Assembly: GCA_903915535.1 (NCBI GenBank)
Contig: CAIWTJ010000089.1
Coordinates: 1 to 64,000, forward strand
DNA: 64,000 nucleotides
Direction of reading: 5' to 3'
Source: Enhydrobacter aerosaccus
GTDB lineage: Bacteria; Pseudomonadota; Alphaproteobacteria; Reyranellales; Reyranellaceae
The notes beneath the pieces were generated by a model. The model searched no databases and was not told the DNA's origin. It worked only from the letters and a program-made list of their open reading frames with translations. Positions within the stretch are counted from its first letter, which is position 1. Each line of letters begins with the position of its first letter. The translations under genes were made by a program, and so were the position numbers. Positions 55,184 to 60,492 of the stretch are shown in pieces.

Positions 55184-56380
55184 TTATCCTTCGTTCTCTT
55201 TCTTGAACGGCGAATACTGCATCAGCCCTTCAATCTCCTGCTCGACAGCGGGGCGTTCGCGCTTCAGGTAATCGTCGATGGCGCGGCGGAAGGCGGGATC
55301 GACGATCCAGTGCGCCGAGTAGGTCTTTACCGGCAGGTAGCCGCGCTGGATTTTGTGATCGCCCTGTGCACCGGCCTCGACCCGGGCCAAGCCGTGCTCG
55401 ATCGCGTGGTCGATCGCCTGGTAGTAGCAGGCCTCGAAATGCAGGAACGCGTGGCTTTCGAGGCAGCCCCAGTAGCGGCCGTAGAGGGTGTCGTCGCCCT
55501 TGAGGTTGAGCGCGCCGCCGACCGGGCGGCCGTCGGCCTCGGCCATCACCAGCACGACCTTGTCGGCCATCGTGCTTCCCAGGATGTCGAAGAAGGCACG
55601 CGTCAGGTAGGGCGTGCCCCACTTGCGACCGCCGGTATCCATATAGAAGGCGAAGAAGGCGTCCCAGTGCTCGGGCTTGATATCGTCGCCGGTGAGTTGG
55701 CGGATGACGAGCCCTTCCTGTCGCACCTGCTCGCGCTCCTTGCGGATCGCCTTGCGCTTGCGCGAGGAGAGGGCCCCCAGAAAGTCGTCGAAGCTTTTGT
55801 AGCCCTGATTGCTCCAGTGATACTGCTGCCCGAGCCGCAGCAGCCACCCGCGCTCACCGAAGCGCTTCCAGTCGTCCTCGCTGCAGAAGGTGGCGTGGAC
55901 CGAGCTGATATTGTTGTCGCCAGCGATCGTCGCCAGCATGTCGATAAGGGCATCGCGAACCGCCGACGCGAGAGGTCCCGGTCTGGCGAACAGGCGCGGG
56001 CCGGGAACGGGCGTGAAAGGGATCGCGACCTGGAGCTTCGGGTAATAGCGGCCGCCAGCGCGTTCGAGCGCCTGCGCCCAGCCATGGTCGAAGATGTATT
56101 CGCCCTGGCTGTGGCTCTTTACGTACATCGGCGTGGCGCCCTGCAAGGTGCCGTCCGACGTTTCGGCCAGGAGATACTGCGGCTGCCACCCGGTGCGCCG
56201 GCCGACCGACTTGGAATCCTCGAGCGCCTTCAGGAAGCCGTGGCTCAGGAACGGGTTTCCGCCCGAGCCGGGCGCGAGCGCGCACGCGTCCCATTGGTCC
56301 GCATCGACGGCGGCGAGGCTTTCGACGACGCGCAGCCCGATCGTCGGGGAGTCATCCGGCATGCCGCCAGCATAGCGCAA
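55184..56380 (-). CDS. FemAB-like / GNAT-type acyltransferase (PF04339-like)
   Basis: 398 residues from the first ATG; a start at residue 7 (MPDDSPTIGLRVVESL) is as plausible. Family features: NPFLSHGFLKALEDSKSVG, GWQPQYLLAE, YIFDHGWAQALERAGGRYYP, KLQVAIPFTPVPGPRLF, the basic SSRKRKAIRKEREQVRQEGL, and HFEACYYQAIDHAIEHGLAR. The PF04339 FemAB_like family shares the GNAT fold of FemX and leucyl-tRNA transferases and is presumed to act in peptidoglycan or cell-envelope biosynthesis; substrate unknown. Monocistronic by context. Confidence 0.85.
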   Translation of the reverse strand: MRYAGGMPDDSPTIGLRVVESLAAVDADQWDACALAPGSGGNPFLSHGFLKALEDSKSVGRRTGWQPQYLLAETSDGTLQGATPMYVKSHSQGEYIFDHGWAQALERAGGRYYPKLQVAIPFTPVPGPRLFARPGPLASAVRDALIDMLATIAGDNNISSVHATFCSEDDWKRFGERGWLLRLGQQYHWSNQGYKSFDDFLGALSSRKRKAIRKEREQVRQEGLVIRQLTGDDIKPEHWDAFFAFYMDTGGRKWGTPYLTRAFFDILGSTMADKVVLVMAEADGRPVGGALNLKGDDTLYGRYWGCLESHAFLHFEACYYQAIDHAIEHGLARVEAGAQGDHKIQRGYLPVKTYSAHWIVDPAFRRAIDDYLKRERPAVEQEIEGLMQYSPFKKENEG

Positions 56381-56403
56381 ATCGTGCCATCAAGAGGGCA
56401 GAC

Positions 56404-56434
56404 AAAAAAAGTCCGGCAGACCGAAGTCGCCGGA
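56404..56434 (-). terminator. Intrinsic terminator upstream of the FemAB-like gene
   Basis: On the minus strand TCCGGC (56429-56434) and GCCGGA (56412-56417) pair around an 11-base loop, followed by C and TTTTTTT (56404-56410). It would stop transcripts arriving from the micro-ORF/nrdJ direction before the FemAB-like gene. Confidence 0.7.
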
Positions 56435-56571
56435 TCTTTGGCTAGTTTCGCCTTTCCGCTCTCCGTGAGGAGGGCGTTGCATTGGCTTTAATGCATTATC
56501 GTTGAAGGTGGCTTCCGGGGGGGGCCCGTGAGGGCACCCGACCGGAAACCGAAAGGCGTTTTAGGTAGAGG

Positions 56572-56595
56572 GGCCAGGGTCCGAAGACCCTGGCC
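56572..56595 (-). terminator. UUCG-loop hairpin behind the Lys/Ala micro-ORF
   Basis: GGCCAGGGTC (56586-56595 read on the minus strand) and GACCCTGGCC (56572-56581) form a perfect 10-bp stem closed by TTCG, a very stable tetraloop on the minus-strand RNA. It starts 15 bp after the micro-ORF stop. The run after it is C-rich rather than T-rich, so it may be a 3' stabiliser as much as a terminator. Confidence 0.65.
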
Positions 56596-56610
56596 AACGC
56601 CCTGTCCTAA

Positions 56611-56667
56611 TTAGGACTTCTTCTTCTTAGCAGCCTTCTTCTTAGCAGCCTTTTTCTTAGCAGCCAT
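56611..56667 (-). CDS. 18-residue Lys/Ala-rich micro-protein
   Basis: An 18-codon ORF, MAAKKKAAKKKAAKKKKS, made only of Ala and Lys apart from the ends, in three AA-KKK units. AGGAG precedes the ATG by six bases, and a strong UUCG-loop hairpin follows the stop, so it looks like an independent transcript of about 100 nt. The composition resembles the basic tails of histone H1-like bacterial proteins; short Lys/Ala-rich peptides of this type occur elsewhere in alphaproteobacteria, as far as I recall. Ten Lys in 18 residues suggests nucleic-acid or polyphosphate binding, but no function is shown. It may alternatively be a repetitive remnant of a longer basic protein. Confidence 0.5.
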   Translation of the reverse strand: MAAKKKAAKKKAAKKKKS

Positions 56668-56746
56668 AACTGTCTCCTATGGTTAGCATTGAAGTTCCCA
56701 ACCGCGGGTTCCTCGCCTTACGCAGGGTACGCTCGTCACGCATGCG

Positions 56747-59700
56747 TCAACTGCAGCCGGTGGTGCCGCCGCAGGTCGTGCATTTGAGGCACGTCCCGTT
56801 GCGAACCATGGTGAAGTTGCCACACTCCGGACACGCATCCCCCTCGAAGCCTTTCAGCTTCGCGGTGAATGCCTCTCCGCGCGTGACTCCGACGACGGCC
56901 GCCTGGGCAAAGCCCGTAGCGACGGTTGGGCCGTCCGTCAGTCCAGTAGGCTCGGGGCTGGCAGCGATCGCCTCGGCGACCGCGGTGTTGCCAGCCATCC
57001 GGCCGTTCAAAACATAAAGATTGCTGCGCATGTAGCCGACGCTGGCGATGCGGCTCACGGCGTCGGCAGCTTCCTGCGCGACCTCCGTGCCGGTCACCGG
57101 CAGTCCATCGGCGACCAGGCCGCGCCCGACGCTGTCGGGGCGAAGATCGGATTGCTCGACATGCGCGAGATCGTTGCGCCCGAGATAGGAGATCGCGAGC
57201 TCGCGGAAGATGTAGTCGAGGATCGACGTCGACATCTTGATCGCGTCGTTGCCCTCGACCATGCCCGACGGCTCGAAGCGCGTGAAGGTATAGGCCTCGA
57301 CGAACTCCTCGATCGGCACGCCGTACTGCAGACCGATCGAAATCGCGATGGCGAAGTTGTTCATCAAGCTGCGGAAGGCCGCGCCTTCCTTGTGCATGTC
57401 GACAAAGATTTCGCCGACGCGTCCGTCTTCGTATTCGCCGGTGCGAAGGTAGACTTTATGCCCGCCAACAACGGCTTTTTGCGTGTATCCCTTGCGTCGC
57501 TGCGGCAAGCGCTCGCGGCCGGCGCGCACTTCGCGCTCGACGATCCGTTCCACGATGCGCTCGGCAATGATGGGCGCGCGGGCGGCGGGGTTCATATCGG
57601 CGAGGTCGTCATTGGCGGCGCGGTCTTCAGTCTCGTCGCCGATTGCCATCGCCGACAACGGCTGCGACAGCTTCGAGCCGTCGCGATAGAGAGCGTTGGC
57701 CTTGAGACCAAGTCTCCAGGACATCTCATAAGCCTTGCGGCAGTCTTCGACCGATGCGGCGTTTGGCATATTGATCGTTTTTGAGATCGCGCCTGAAATG
57801 AACGGTTGTGCTGCAGCCATCATGCGGATGTGACTCTCCGCAGACAAGCTGCGTGTGCCATCTCGTCCACAGGGATTCGCACAATCGAACACAGAAAGAT
57901 GTTCGCTCTTGAGAGCCGGTGCACCTTCGAGAGACATCGTCCCGCACGCGAAGATGTTCGCCGCTGCGATGTCGCTTCGGGAAAATCCGAGACGCGCAAG
58001 CACGTCGAGCTCGGGATCGGCGAGCGCCGTGTCGTCGAAGGCGAGCACGTTTCGGCAGAAGGCCTCGCCCAGGGTGTAGCGCGAGAAGGCAAAGCGGATG
58101 TCGAAGGCGGTTGGCAACGCCTTCTCGATGCGCTCGAGTGTCAACGCATCGAAGCCGCGCGCCGCCAGCGTTTCGTGATTGATCGCCGGAGCGCCGCGCA
58201 AGGTGCCGTGGCCCGTTGCATAAGCAATGATCTTCTCTGACGTGGCCGTGTCGTAGCCCAAGGTCTTCAGCGCCAGCGGTACCGTCTGGTTAATAATCTT
58301 GAAGTAGCCGCCGCCAGCCAGCTTCTTGAATTTTACAAGTGCGAAGTCGGGTTCGATGCCGGTGGTGTCGCAATCCATCACCAGTCCGATCGTGCCGGTG
58401 GGGGCAATGACCGAGACCTGGGCGTTGCGAAAGCCGTGTTGCTGGCCAAGCGACAGGGCGCGGTCCCAGGCCTGTCGCGCCGCAGCAATCAACGTGCTGT
58501 CAGGGCAGTTGGCGGCATCGAGGGCCACCGGATGGATGGCGAGACCCTCATAGTCGGCGCCGGAGCCGTAGGCGCCCCGGAGATGATTGCGGATCACTCG
58601 CAGCATGCCGTCACGATTGTCGGCGTAACCGGGGAAGGGGCCCATGAGACCGGCCATCTCGGCCGACGTCGCATAGGCAGTGCCCGTCATGACGGCGGCA
58701 ACAGCGCCGGCGATCGCCCGGCCGGCAGCACTGTCGTAGCCCAGGCCCGACGCCATCAGTAGCGCGCCGAGATTGGCATAGCCCAGGCCCAGGGTGCGGT
58801 AGCGGTAGGACAGTTCGGCGATGGTGCGCGAGGGATATTGCGCCATCATGACCGAGATCTCGAGCACGACGGTCCACAAACGGGTCGCATGCTCGAGAGC
58901 CGCGACGTTGATATGGCCATCTTCCTGGCGGAAGCGCATCAGGTTCAGCGACGCCAGATTGCACGCCGTGTCGTCCAGGAACATGTATTCCGAGCACGGG
59001 TTCGACGCGTTGATGCGGCCGGACGTGGGGCAGGTGTGCCAGTCGTTGATCGTGGTGTCGAACTGCACGCCCGGATCGGCCGAATGCCATGCAGCCTCGG
59101 CGACGCGATCCCAGAGTTGGGCAGCGTTCAAGGTCTTGGAGACGTTACCGGTCGTGCGTTCGGTCAGTGCCCAGTCGCGGTCGGCCTCGACCGCGCGCAT
59201 GAAGGCGTCGGTGACCCGCACCGAGTTGTTGGCGTTCTGGCCCGCGACCGTCGCATAGGCTTCCGACTGCCAATCGACATCGAAGGCGGGAAATTCGATG
59301 TGGCGATAGCCCTGGCGCGCGAACTGGACGACGCGCTGGATGTAATTCTCGGGCAGCTCGGCCCGGCGGGCTGCCACGATCTCTCGGCGCAGCCGGGGAT
59401 TTTCTTTCGGGTCGAAGCCATCGGCGCAGGCGGCCATGATGGCGTTGAGGTGCCGGTTGGCCAGGCGCGAGCCGGTGACGAGGGCCGCCACCTTCTGCTC
59501 TTCCATCATCTTCCAGGAGATGAACTCCTCGATATCCGGATGGTCGATGTCGACCGTGACCATCTTAGCCGCGCGGCGCGTCGTGCCCCCCGACTTGATG
59601 GCGCCCGCAGCGCGATCGCCGATCTTGAGGAAGGACATCAGACCCGACGACTTGCCGCCGCCCGACAGCTTCTCGTTCGCGCCGCGCACGGCCGAGAAAT

Positions 59701-60400
59701 TGGAGCCCGTACCCGAGCCGTACTTGAAGAGGCGCGCCTCGCGGACCCAGAGATCCATGATGCCGCCTTCGCCGACCAGATCGTCCGAGACGCTCTGGAT
59801 GAAGCAGGCGTGCGGCTGTGGCCGCTCATAGGAAGAAGCGGACGGGTGAGAGGCGCCGTCGCGATGGTCGACGTACCAGTGACCCTGTCCGGCACCATCG
59901 ATGCCGTAGGCCCAGTGCAGGCCGGTATTGAACCATTGCGGCGAGTTCGGCGCGCACATCTGAGCCGCCAGCATAAAGCAATGTTCGGCATAGAACGTCC
60001 GGGCGTCGTCTTCGCTGTCGAAGTAGCCGCCCTTCCAGCCCCAATAGGTCCACGCTCCGGCCATGCGATGGAAAACCTGCCGGGCGCTGGTCTCGCCGCC
60101 GAAGCGCTTGTCTTCCGGCAAGTCAGCCAAGGCCGCTTCATCCGGCACCGAGCGCCACAGCCACTCCGGCATATCGGCCTCGGCGACCTTGATCAGGCGT
60201 CGAGGGACGCCGGCGCGGCGGAAATACTTCTGGGCGAGCACGTCGGCCGCCACCTGGCTCCAGTCGGCCGGCACGTCGATACCGGTCTGGCGGAAGACTA
60301 TCGTTCCGTCGGGATTGCGGATTTCGGAATCGGCAGCACGGAACGCGACCCGGTCGAAGGGCGATTCTCCTGCTTGCGTAAACCGACGCTCGAAGCGCAT
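56747..60400 (-). CDS. nrdJ: Adenosylcobalamin-dependent ribonucleoside-diphosphate reductase (class II)
   Basis: 1217 residues from [18 protein letters not shown]; the frame is open 24 codons further upstream, over the promoter. Class II features: active-site [19 protein letters not shown] (Cys/Glu), [32 protein letters not shown] and a C-terminal zinc-ribbon-like [18 protein letters not shown] ending CGGTTGCS, which supplies redox cysteines. Makes deoxyribonucleotides without oxygen using vitamin B12, so this cell must make or import cobalamin. No class I genes lie in the window. The upstream region has a promoter with NrdR-like boxes but no cobalamin riboswitch. Confidence 0.96.
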
Positions 60401-60492
60401 TAACTTGATCCCCTGCGCCCATCTCCCGTCATTTCTTCCCGTCGCGGGATGTGCTCGTCGTATTTCGAGCACGCAGATATGGGCACCAAAAG

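Follow-up and report, generated by a model that had tools for sequence, protein, structure and literature searches.

Behind nrdJ in the window (the whole stretch of 64,000 nucleotides analysed here), we found an open reading frame of 18 sense codons that, judged from its relatives, appears to be a genuine micro-gene. Its start codon, ribosome site and reading frame are conserved, its codons change in the manner of a coding sequence, and the RNA behind it has two covarying hairpins and a distal terminator-like hairpin. The best explanation, to which we assign a probability of about 0.6, is that the ORF is translated into a stand-alone polycation resembling the tail of histone H1, which would bind nucleic acid or polyphosphate. 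The features are listed in Table 1.

Table 1. Features of the micro-ORF region and its neighbours, with positions in the window.
Feature	Position	Strand	Basis or occurrence in relatives
nrdJ, B12-dependent ribonucleotide reductase, upstream neighbour	56747..60472	minus	NF005736, 2094 bits
Remainder of the 79-nt spacer from the nrdJ stop to the micro-ORF	56686..56746	minus	78 nt in 53/60 units, range 76-79
Near-invariant initiation block TAACCATAGGAGACAGTT, with Shine-Dalgarno AGGAGA at 56678-56673	56668..56685	minus	comparison of relatives
Micro-ORF, ATG to TAA, MAAKKKAAKKKAAKKKKS	56667-56611	minus	18 sense codons; ORF and translation
Palindrome GTCCTAATTAGGAC around the stop codon	56604..56617	minus	Ser-ending lineage: L003; variants in L004, L005
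P1 5' strand AGGGCG	56598..56603	minus	identical in 47/47 alignment rows; present in 59/60 units
P2 hairpin GGCCAGGGTC-TTCG-GACCCTGGCC	56572..56595	minus	8 consensus pairs, 6 changed on both sides
Joining motif CCCUCUACC, in relatives mostly CCCUCUAACC	56564..56572	minus	kept with small changes in sister genera
P1 3' strand CGCCTT	56553..56558	minus	ACGCCTTTC in 59/60 units
P3 hairpin GGTTTCCGG...CCGGAAGCC	56510..56550	minus	15 consensus pairs, 6 changed on both sides; also in sister genera
GAAAGGCG, alternative partner of the P1 3' strand	56449..56456	minus	long-range helix of the full-length consensus fold
Intrinsic terminator, UUCG-capped, TCCGGCGAC-TTCG-GTCTGCCGGA-C-TTTTTTT	56404..56434	minus	sequence and fold
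FemAB_like gene, downstream neighbour, variable among relatives	55184..56380	minus	PF04339, 8.6e-164

The micro-ORF and its conservation

Besides its initiator Met, the micro-ORF encodes 10 Lys, 6 Ala and, as the last residue, Ser. AGGAGA is found five nucleotides ahead of its ATG in the window. The first-pass annotation had described an 18-codon ORF of Lys and Ala only, with 55 percent Lys and a ribosome site, between nrdJ and a FemAB-like gene. The ribosome site, the Lys share (56% of the 18 residues) and both neighbours agree with our results, and the composition was nearly right, needing only the addition of Met and Ser. The same annotation had called the ORF an independent transcription unit, a claim that found no support when the window was scanned, as no sigma-70-type promoter was found for the micro-ORF. 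No other ATG ORF in the window that is 10-60 codons long reaches 45% Lys, and none occurred in 30 first-order Markov simulations, each 64 kb long. The 18-mer itself is below the scannable length. Five relatives of 21-36 aa were searched against Pfam and NCBIfam, and no model matched up to E = 1; low-complexity peptides of such length seldom score against family models. Among the matches listed by a literature search, no paper on this ORF was found.

A scan of named genomes revealed 49 loci, many of them titled Reyranella and the rest mostly Alphaproteobacteria or Rhodospirillales MAGs, some with other names. Records of Reyranella aquatilis and Reyranella soli are among these loci, and therefore testable strains seem to exist. 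When a Lys-rich ORF was sought behind the nrdJ C-terminus, 44 of the 49 loci entered the search and all 44 carried the ORF, with TAACCATAGGAGACAGTT or a version differing by a few letters as ribosome site; no such ORF was found in the other five loci (L045, L047 and L049-L051). We also collected 84 distinct nrdJ ends, selected by the nrdJ C-terminus alone. Within 135 nt past nrdJ, 69 of these ends have a Lys-rich ATG ORF in an 18-aa or a 20-22-aa form, always starting MAAKKK and in one case with MI- ahead. The 15 ends that have no micro-ORF, which comprise 12 'same class' genomes (L095-L106) and three loci of the named scan (L047, L049 and L050), all lie outside the order as far as the labels tell, and this complete lack behind nrdJ outside the order (0/15) counts against the best explanation.

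For comparison within the genus, 60 distinct units were gathered by the ribosome site and the first six codons; one of them, L030 (the same stretch as L157), is also among the 59 rows used below, yet it belongs to the neighbouring genus g280. The first-pass annotation had proposed to look in relatives for the same MAAKKK ORF with its hairpin and to count the length of the repeat between strains. The ORF was recovered behind the nrdJ ends described above, and the hairpin with the RNA model described below. Within the genus the repeat proved constant: each of the 60 units has 18 aa, as do the genus-level rows. It varies between genera, the ORF having 20, 21 and 22 codons in the sister genera g278, g279 and g26, respectively. 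These length differences are in frame, and Pro occurs among the micro-ORFs after nrdJ only in g26. In a second family of the order (f2, represented by G037), MAAKKKAAKKKATKKAAKKKKM follows nrdJ and the 3' region differs. One contig of genus g278 (L152:1-151, minus; G420:C474) has a second ORF rich in Lys, Ala and Pro behind the first micro-ORF, with its own ribosome site; it is at least 50 aa long, unfinished at the contig end, and looks like a tandem expansion towards an H1-like protein.

The manner in which the ORF changes was analysed in 59 position-aligned genus-level rows, whose selection used only the nrdJ C-terminus. Across codons 2-17 the changes number at least 0, 3 and 11 for codon positions 1, 2 and 3, respectively (binomial p = 7e-4, treating sites as independent), and this concentration at third positions shows the frame to be under coding selection. 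A further count over 27 ORFs including another genus gave 0, 4 and 15 changes (p = 6e-5); the search pattern of that set had fixed positions 1 and 2 of codons 2-6, and the fair test is the 59-row set. AGGAGA and ATG are unchanged in 59/59 rows. Mean identity in these rows is 98.4% over the 21 nt before the ATG, 97.1% over codons 1-17 and 89.0% over the remaining spacer. Behind the ORF it is 87.9% over the first 105 nt and 78.7% over the remainder, in a set chosen by ribosome site, and the four-fold sites in the last 60 codons of nrdJ reach 84% (15 sites). The start, the Shine-Dalgarno sequence, the frame and the third-position bias are thus as expected of a protein-coding micro-gene. A lack of conservation of start codon, ribosome site or frame in relatives would have spoken against the first-pass annotation, and all three turned out to be strongly conserved.

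These results bear directly on another reading of the region, namely that it is an ordinary 3'-UTR of nrdJ with a terminator, in which the ORF is a chance purine-rich repeat. Such a reading would fit the near-fixed spacing of the unit to nrdJ and the promoter scan that found none, but it is contradicted by the third-position bias and the coding-selection pattern, by the invariance of AGGAGA and ATG, by the in-frame length changes between genera and by the 30 simulated sequences lacking such an ORF. We consider it barely credible.

The RNA behind the ORF

The first-pass annotation had given the micro-ORF a UUCG terminator. The inverted repeat in question, at 56595-56572, is real, but it is followed in the window by CCTCTACC rather than by a U-run, it is absent from the terminator scan, and none of the 60 units has a U-run after it. 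It forms arm P2 of a conserved RNA fold and is distinct from the terminator; a UUCG loop caps it in 4 of 47 rows (L003, L004, L005 and L034). A GC-rich stem followed directly by a U-run, as in an intrinsic terminator, was found at 56434-56404, where TCCGGC-GAC-TTCG-GTC-T-GCCGGA precedes C and seven T; the terminator scan reports an overlapping 5-pair register at 56425-56412. The pattern TCCGG...CCGGA-T(n) is present in 58/60 units, mostly about 180 nt past codon 15, and the two units outside this count (L038 and L062) have the terminator with small differences. By pattern, CTTCGG occupies the terminator loop in 32/60 units.

The fold was examined in an alignment (A1) of 47 distinct sequences, from which the truncated L025, L033 and L077 and the window copies L001, L052 and L053 were excluded. 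Twelve of the 29 pairs changed on both sides, and 98.5% of the cells pair. Shuffled alignments gave a mean of 4.3 such pairs, none of 500 shuffles reached 12, and slid versions gave 1-5 pairs, which shows that P2 and P3 covary. P1 is invariant in the 47 rows, so covariation is uninformative on it. Covariation is weak in nine sister-genus sequences, with one pair changed on both sides (shuffled mean 1.7) and a covariation score of 0.089 vs 0.058, reached by 4 of 500 shuffles. We also considered a pairing of the 5' GGUUGGGG with the joining motif CCCUCUAACC, which looks good by eye in some rows; it was rejected, as it fails in the window and in L007.

A model of the region behind the ORF (R1) was built from genus-level sequences, which match it by construction. 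R1 matched 72 of the 76 genomes of the order, including all 51 of good quality. The four genomes in which it had no match are G027, G432, G443 and G037; in G027 (L077) the contig stops just past the ORF. G032 is counted among the 72 despite a defective stretch, L164 (G032:C51:50500-52500), in which nrdJ has no C-terminus, the micro-ORF is missing along with the 5' portion of the fold, and the nrdJ frame is joined to the 3' fold across a single gap. This gap may be a true deletion or an assembly fault (contamination 8%). Outside the order, R1 gave 7 weak matches in 385 class genomes, the best with E = 5.6e-4 (G217), which were taken as chance. A search of the 385 class genomes for the sister-genus core ATTGGCCCCTCTAACTGATGCCAAT, allowing 3 mismatches, gave one match, in a genome of the own family. 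A search of the window at 56000-57200 against Rfam 15 found nothing at threshold; the sole match up to E = 1 was Scr2736 on the other strand, with 22.3 bits against a threshold of 43. A tmRNA/tRNA search at 55500-57500 found none.

Within the genus, the ORF is conserved beyond what the peptide would need. At codons 2 and 12, Ala is encoded by GCT in 60/60 units, while the GCT share of Ala codons is 8% in a ribosomal-protein region (a sample of 20 mechanically called ORFs, some of them non-ribosomal), 9% in five genes of the window and 13% in nrdJ. Such retention of rare GCT codons suggests an additional, RNA-level constraint on the sequence within the genus; in the sister genera the Ala codons are variable. 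We considered whether the GCT codons keep the ORF unpaired and rejected this idea, as in 5 of 6 sequences more pairing is predicted for the native ORF than for its synonymous re-draws. This pairing, together with the unusual codon choice, counts against the best explanation. A candidate partner was found at the end of the ORF: GCTGCT of codons 12-13 could base-pair with the AGCAGT that spans the Lys-Gln-stop junction, in place of which the Ser-ending lineage of the window has GTCCTAATTAGGAC or a variant.

The main rival of the translated polycation is a dual-function or regulatory RNA, in which mainly the RNA would be conserved, the ORF would be translated to remodel the 3' fold, and the RNA or its 3' fragment would act on other transcripts or on nrdJ. 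As one step of this scheme, a ribosome positioned on the stop codon would mask the first part of the P1 5' strand and leave CGCCUUUC free to pair with the distal GAAAGGCG. In the window, AGGGCG of P1 begins 7 nt past the stop codon, and the argument from the ribosome footprint follows from general ribosome geometry. The full-length consensus fold favours the pairing of the P1 3' strand with GAAAGGCG, and AAAGGCG is found at this site in 51/60 units. A regulatory role would account for a nearly invariant strand with two mutually exclusive partners, for the covariation of P2 and P3 (12/29 pairs), for the unusually fixed synonymous positions of the ORF and for the fold of the full transcript (z = -5.15). 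However, the distal partner is absent by exact pattern in 9/60 units, neither alternative helix varies enough for covariation, and the covariation is weak in the nine sister-genus sequences. The second family f2 also keeps the ORF where R1 finds nothing, and similar ORFs stand at other loci in genomes that have no reported R1 match. Weighing both sides, we regard the dual-function RNA as rather unlikely.

The gene that follows the unit differs among relatives. By matching of start motifs it is TetR-like in 36, FemAB-like in 17 and of another kind in 7 of the 60 units, and two of these last seven appear FemAB-like by eye; the TetR label is a tentative one, given on the appearance of the protein in L009. 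A palindrome, ACTGACCGGTCAGT or a variant, overlaps the start of the TetR-like gene downstream of the unit (L009, L012 and others) and is perhaps the operator of that gene itself. Between the terminator and the FemAB-like gene (window 56404-56340, minus), several relatives share TGGCACGATTYGCGCTATGCT or close variants, which we take to resemble a sigma-54 (GG-N10-GC) or sigma-70 -10 element.

A short ORF rich in one residue and followed by hairpins and a terminator also resembles the leader peptides of amino-acid operons. In a lysine attenuator, a shortage of lysyl-tRNA would stall ribosomes on the Lys codons and alter termination before the downstream gene. The run of codons is suitable, as 10 of the 18 are Lys, and a Sinorhizobium sORF in a 5'-UTR, with six Thr and three Lys codons, is described as a proposed leader peptide in PMC10117765. 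Unlike such leaders, however, the micro-ORF has no constant, lysine-linked gene downstream, and its terminator lies outside the alternative pairing: the terminator stem has no bases in common with P1 or with the alternative helix, and no antiterminator overlapping that stem was found. The constraint on Ala positions is also about equal to that on Lys positions. Because the downstream gene changes and the terminator stem stands apart from the alternative helices, a lysine attenuator is very unlikely.

Similar peptides and known polycations

A pattern combining the ribosome site and the ORF matched 10 of 142 class genomes, and its reversed control matched 0 of 142. Two of the ten matching genomes belong to the own genus, four have free-standing ORFs, and in four the match is the start of a protein of 76-302 aa. 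The free-standing Lys/Ala ORFs lie behind GGAG in four other families (L176, 16 aa; L179, 21 aa; L185, 22 aa; L182, 27 aa), and the nrdJ C-terminus is absent from the 400 nt preceding each of them. With a stricter pattern, 8 of 385 genomes matched (3 of the own genus and 5 others), including a 36-aa form. R1 is silent in f2 and these ORFs are at other loci, so the peptide recurs where the RNA was not found. Lys/Ala peptides of this kind therefore recur at unrelated loci in Alphaproteobacteria, presumably by convergence. Longer Lys/Ala ORFs of the class (L083, 87 aa; L178, 76 aa; L181, 140 aa; and the second ORF of L152) have a similar repeat style, are Lys/Ala-rich from the start and, in three of the four (not L083), have GGAG just ahead of the ATG like the micro-ORF. 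They are several times longer, though, and adjacency to nrdJ or the RNA fold was seen for L152 alone.

In composition, AlgP and PhaF come closest among studied proteins; their C-terminal KPAA-repeat (histone H1-like) domains are Lys/Ala-rich, of low complexity and polycationic like the micro-ORF peptide. With 10 K and 6 A in 18 residues, the peptide has the Lys/Ala(/Pro)-rich, low-complexity composition of this group, although its five longer relatives fit no curated family model of it. AlgP has 352 aa with an N-terminal domain and a repeat region of 154 aa, whereas the micro-ORF peptide has 18 aa and neither Pro nor another domain. According to PMC9239181, AlgP is found in association with polyP granules, whose even spacing depends on it; the same source says that DNA is bound in vitro by KPAA peptides and that polyP and polycationic peptides together form condensates. 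With AlgP as a precedent, it is reasonable to suppose that the micro-ORF peptide may bind nucleic acid or polyphosphate. DUF1127 small proteins are likewise very short and come from the same bacterial class (PMC12501420), but DUF1127 is a defined domain, whereas the longer relatives of the micro-ORF peptide match no Pfam or NCBIfam model.

The translated polycation, our preferred reading, would work as follows. The micro-ORF would lie on a short mRNA or at the end of the nrdJ mRNA, and the strong ribosome site would direct its translation into a free-standing 18-residue polycation with 10 Lys, which resembles a fragment of a Lys/Ala tail of the histone-H1 type. The peptide would most likely act by electrostatic binding to a polyanion, i.e., DNA, RNA/ribosomes or polyphosphate, and P1-P3 together with the distal terminator would most likely determine the form of the transcript's 3' end and shield it. 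Translation in the cell, the abundance of the peptide, its polyanion binding and the 3'-end protection are inferences. A wider proposal joins the two functions: the family would have a dual-function module, a gene for a mini-H1 peptide, the translation of which would toggle a new structured RNA between two alternative folds, and stand-alone 16-27-aa Lys/Ala 'mini-histone' genes would form an overlooked, recurrent alphaproteobacterial class that compacts or condenses nucleic acid or polyphosphate. We regard this combination as possible but less likely than not.

ORFs of such length are usually skipped by annotation, and the family libraries also had no match to the longer relatives. The micro-gene would belong with the H1-like Lys/Ala polycations, a kind already known, and has an unlisted RNA fold attached. 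The comparison points to a selected micro-gene after nrdJ in two families of one order, accompanied in one of them by an RNA fold unmatched by Rfam 15. If translated, its product would be a very small selected polycation and, as a minimal natural case, would test whether 18 residues of mostly Lys and Ala suffice to organise nucleic acid or polyphosphate. The retention of the peptide gene and the folded RNA across the family suggests that the peptide does real work in these bacteria, probably by clinging to DNA, RNA or polyphosphate.
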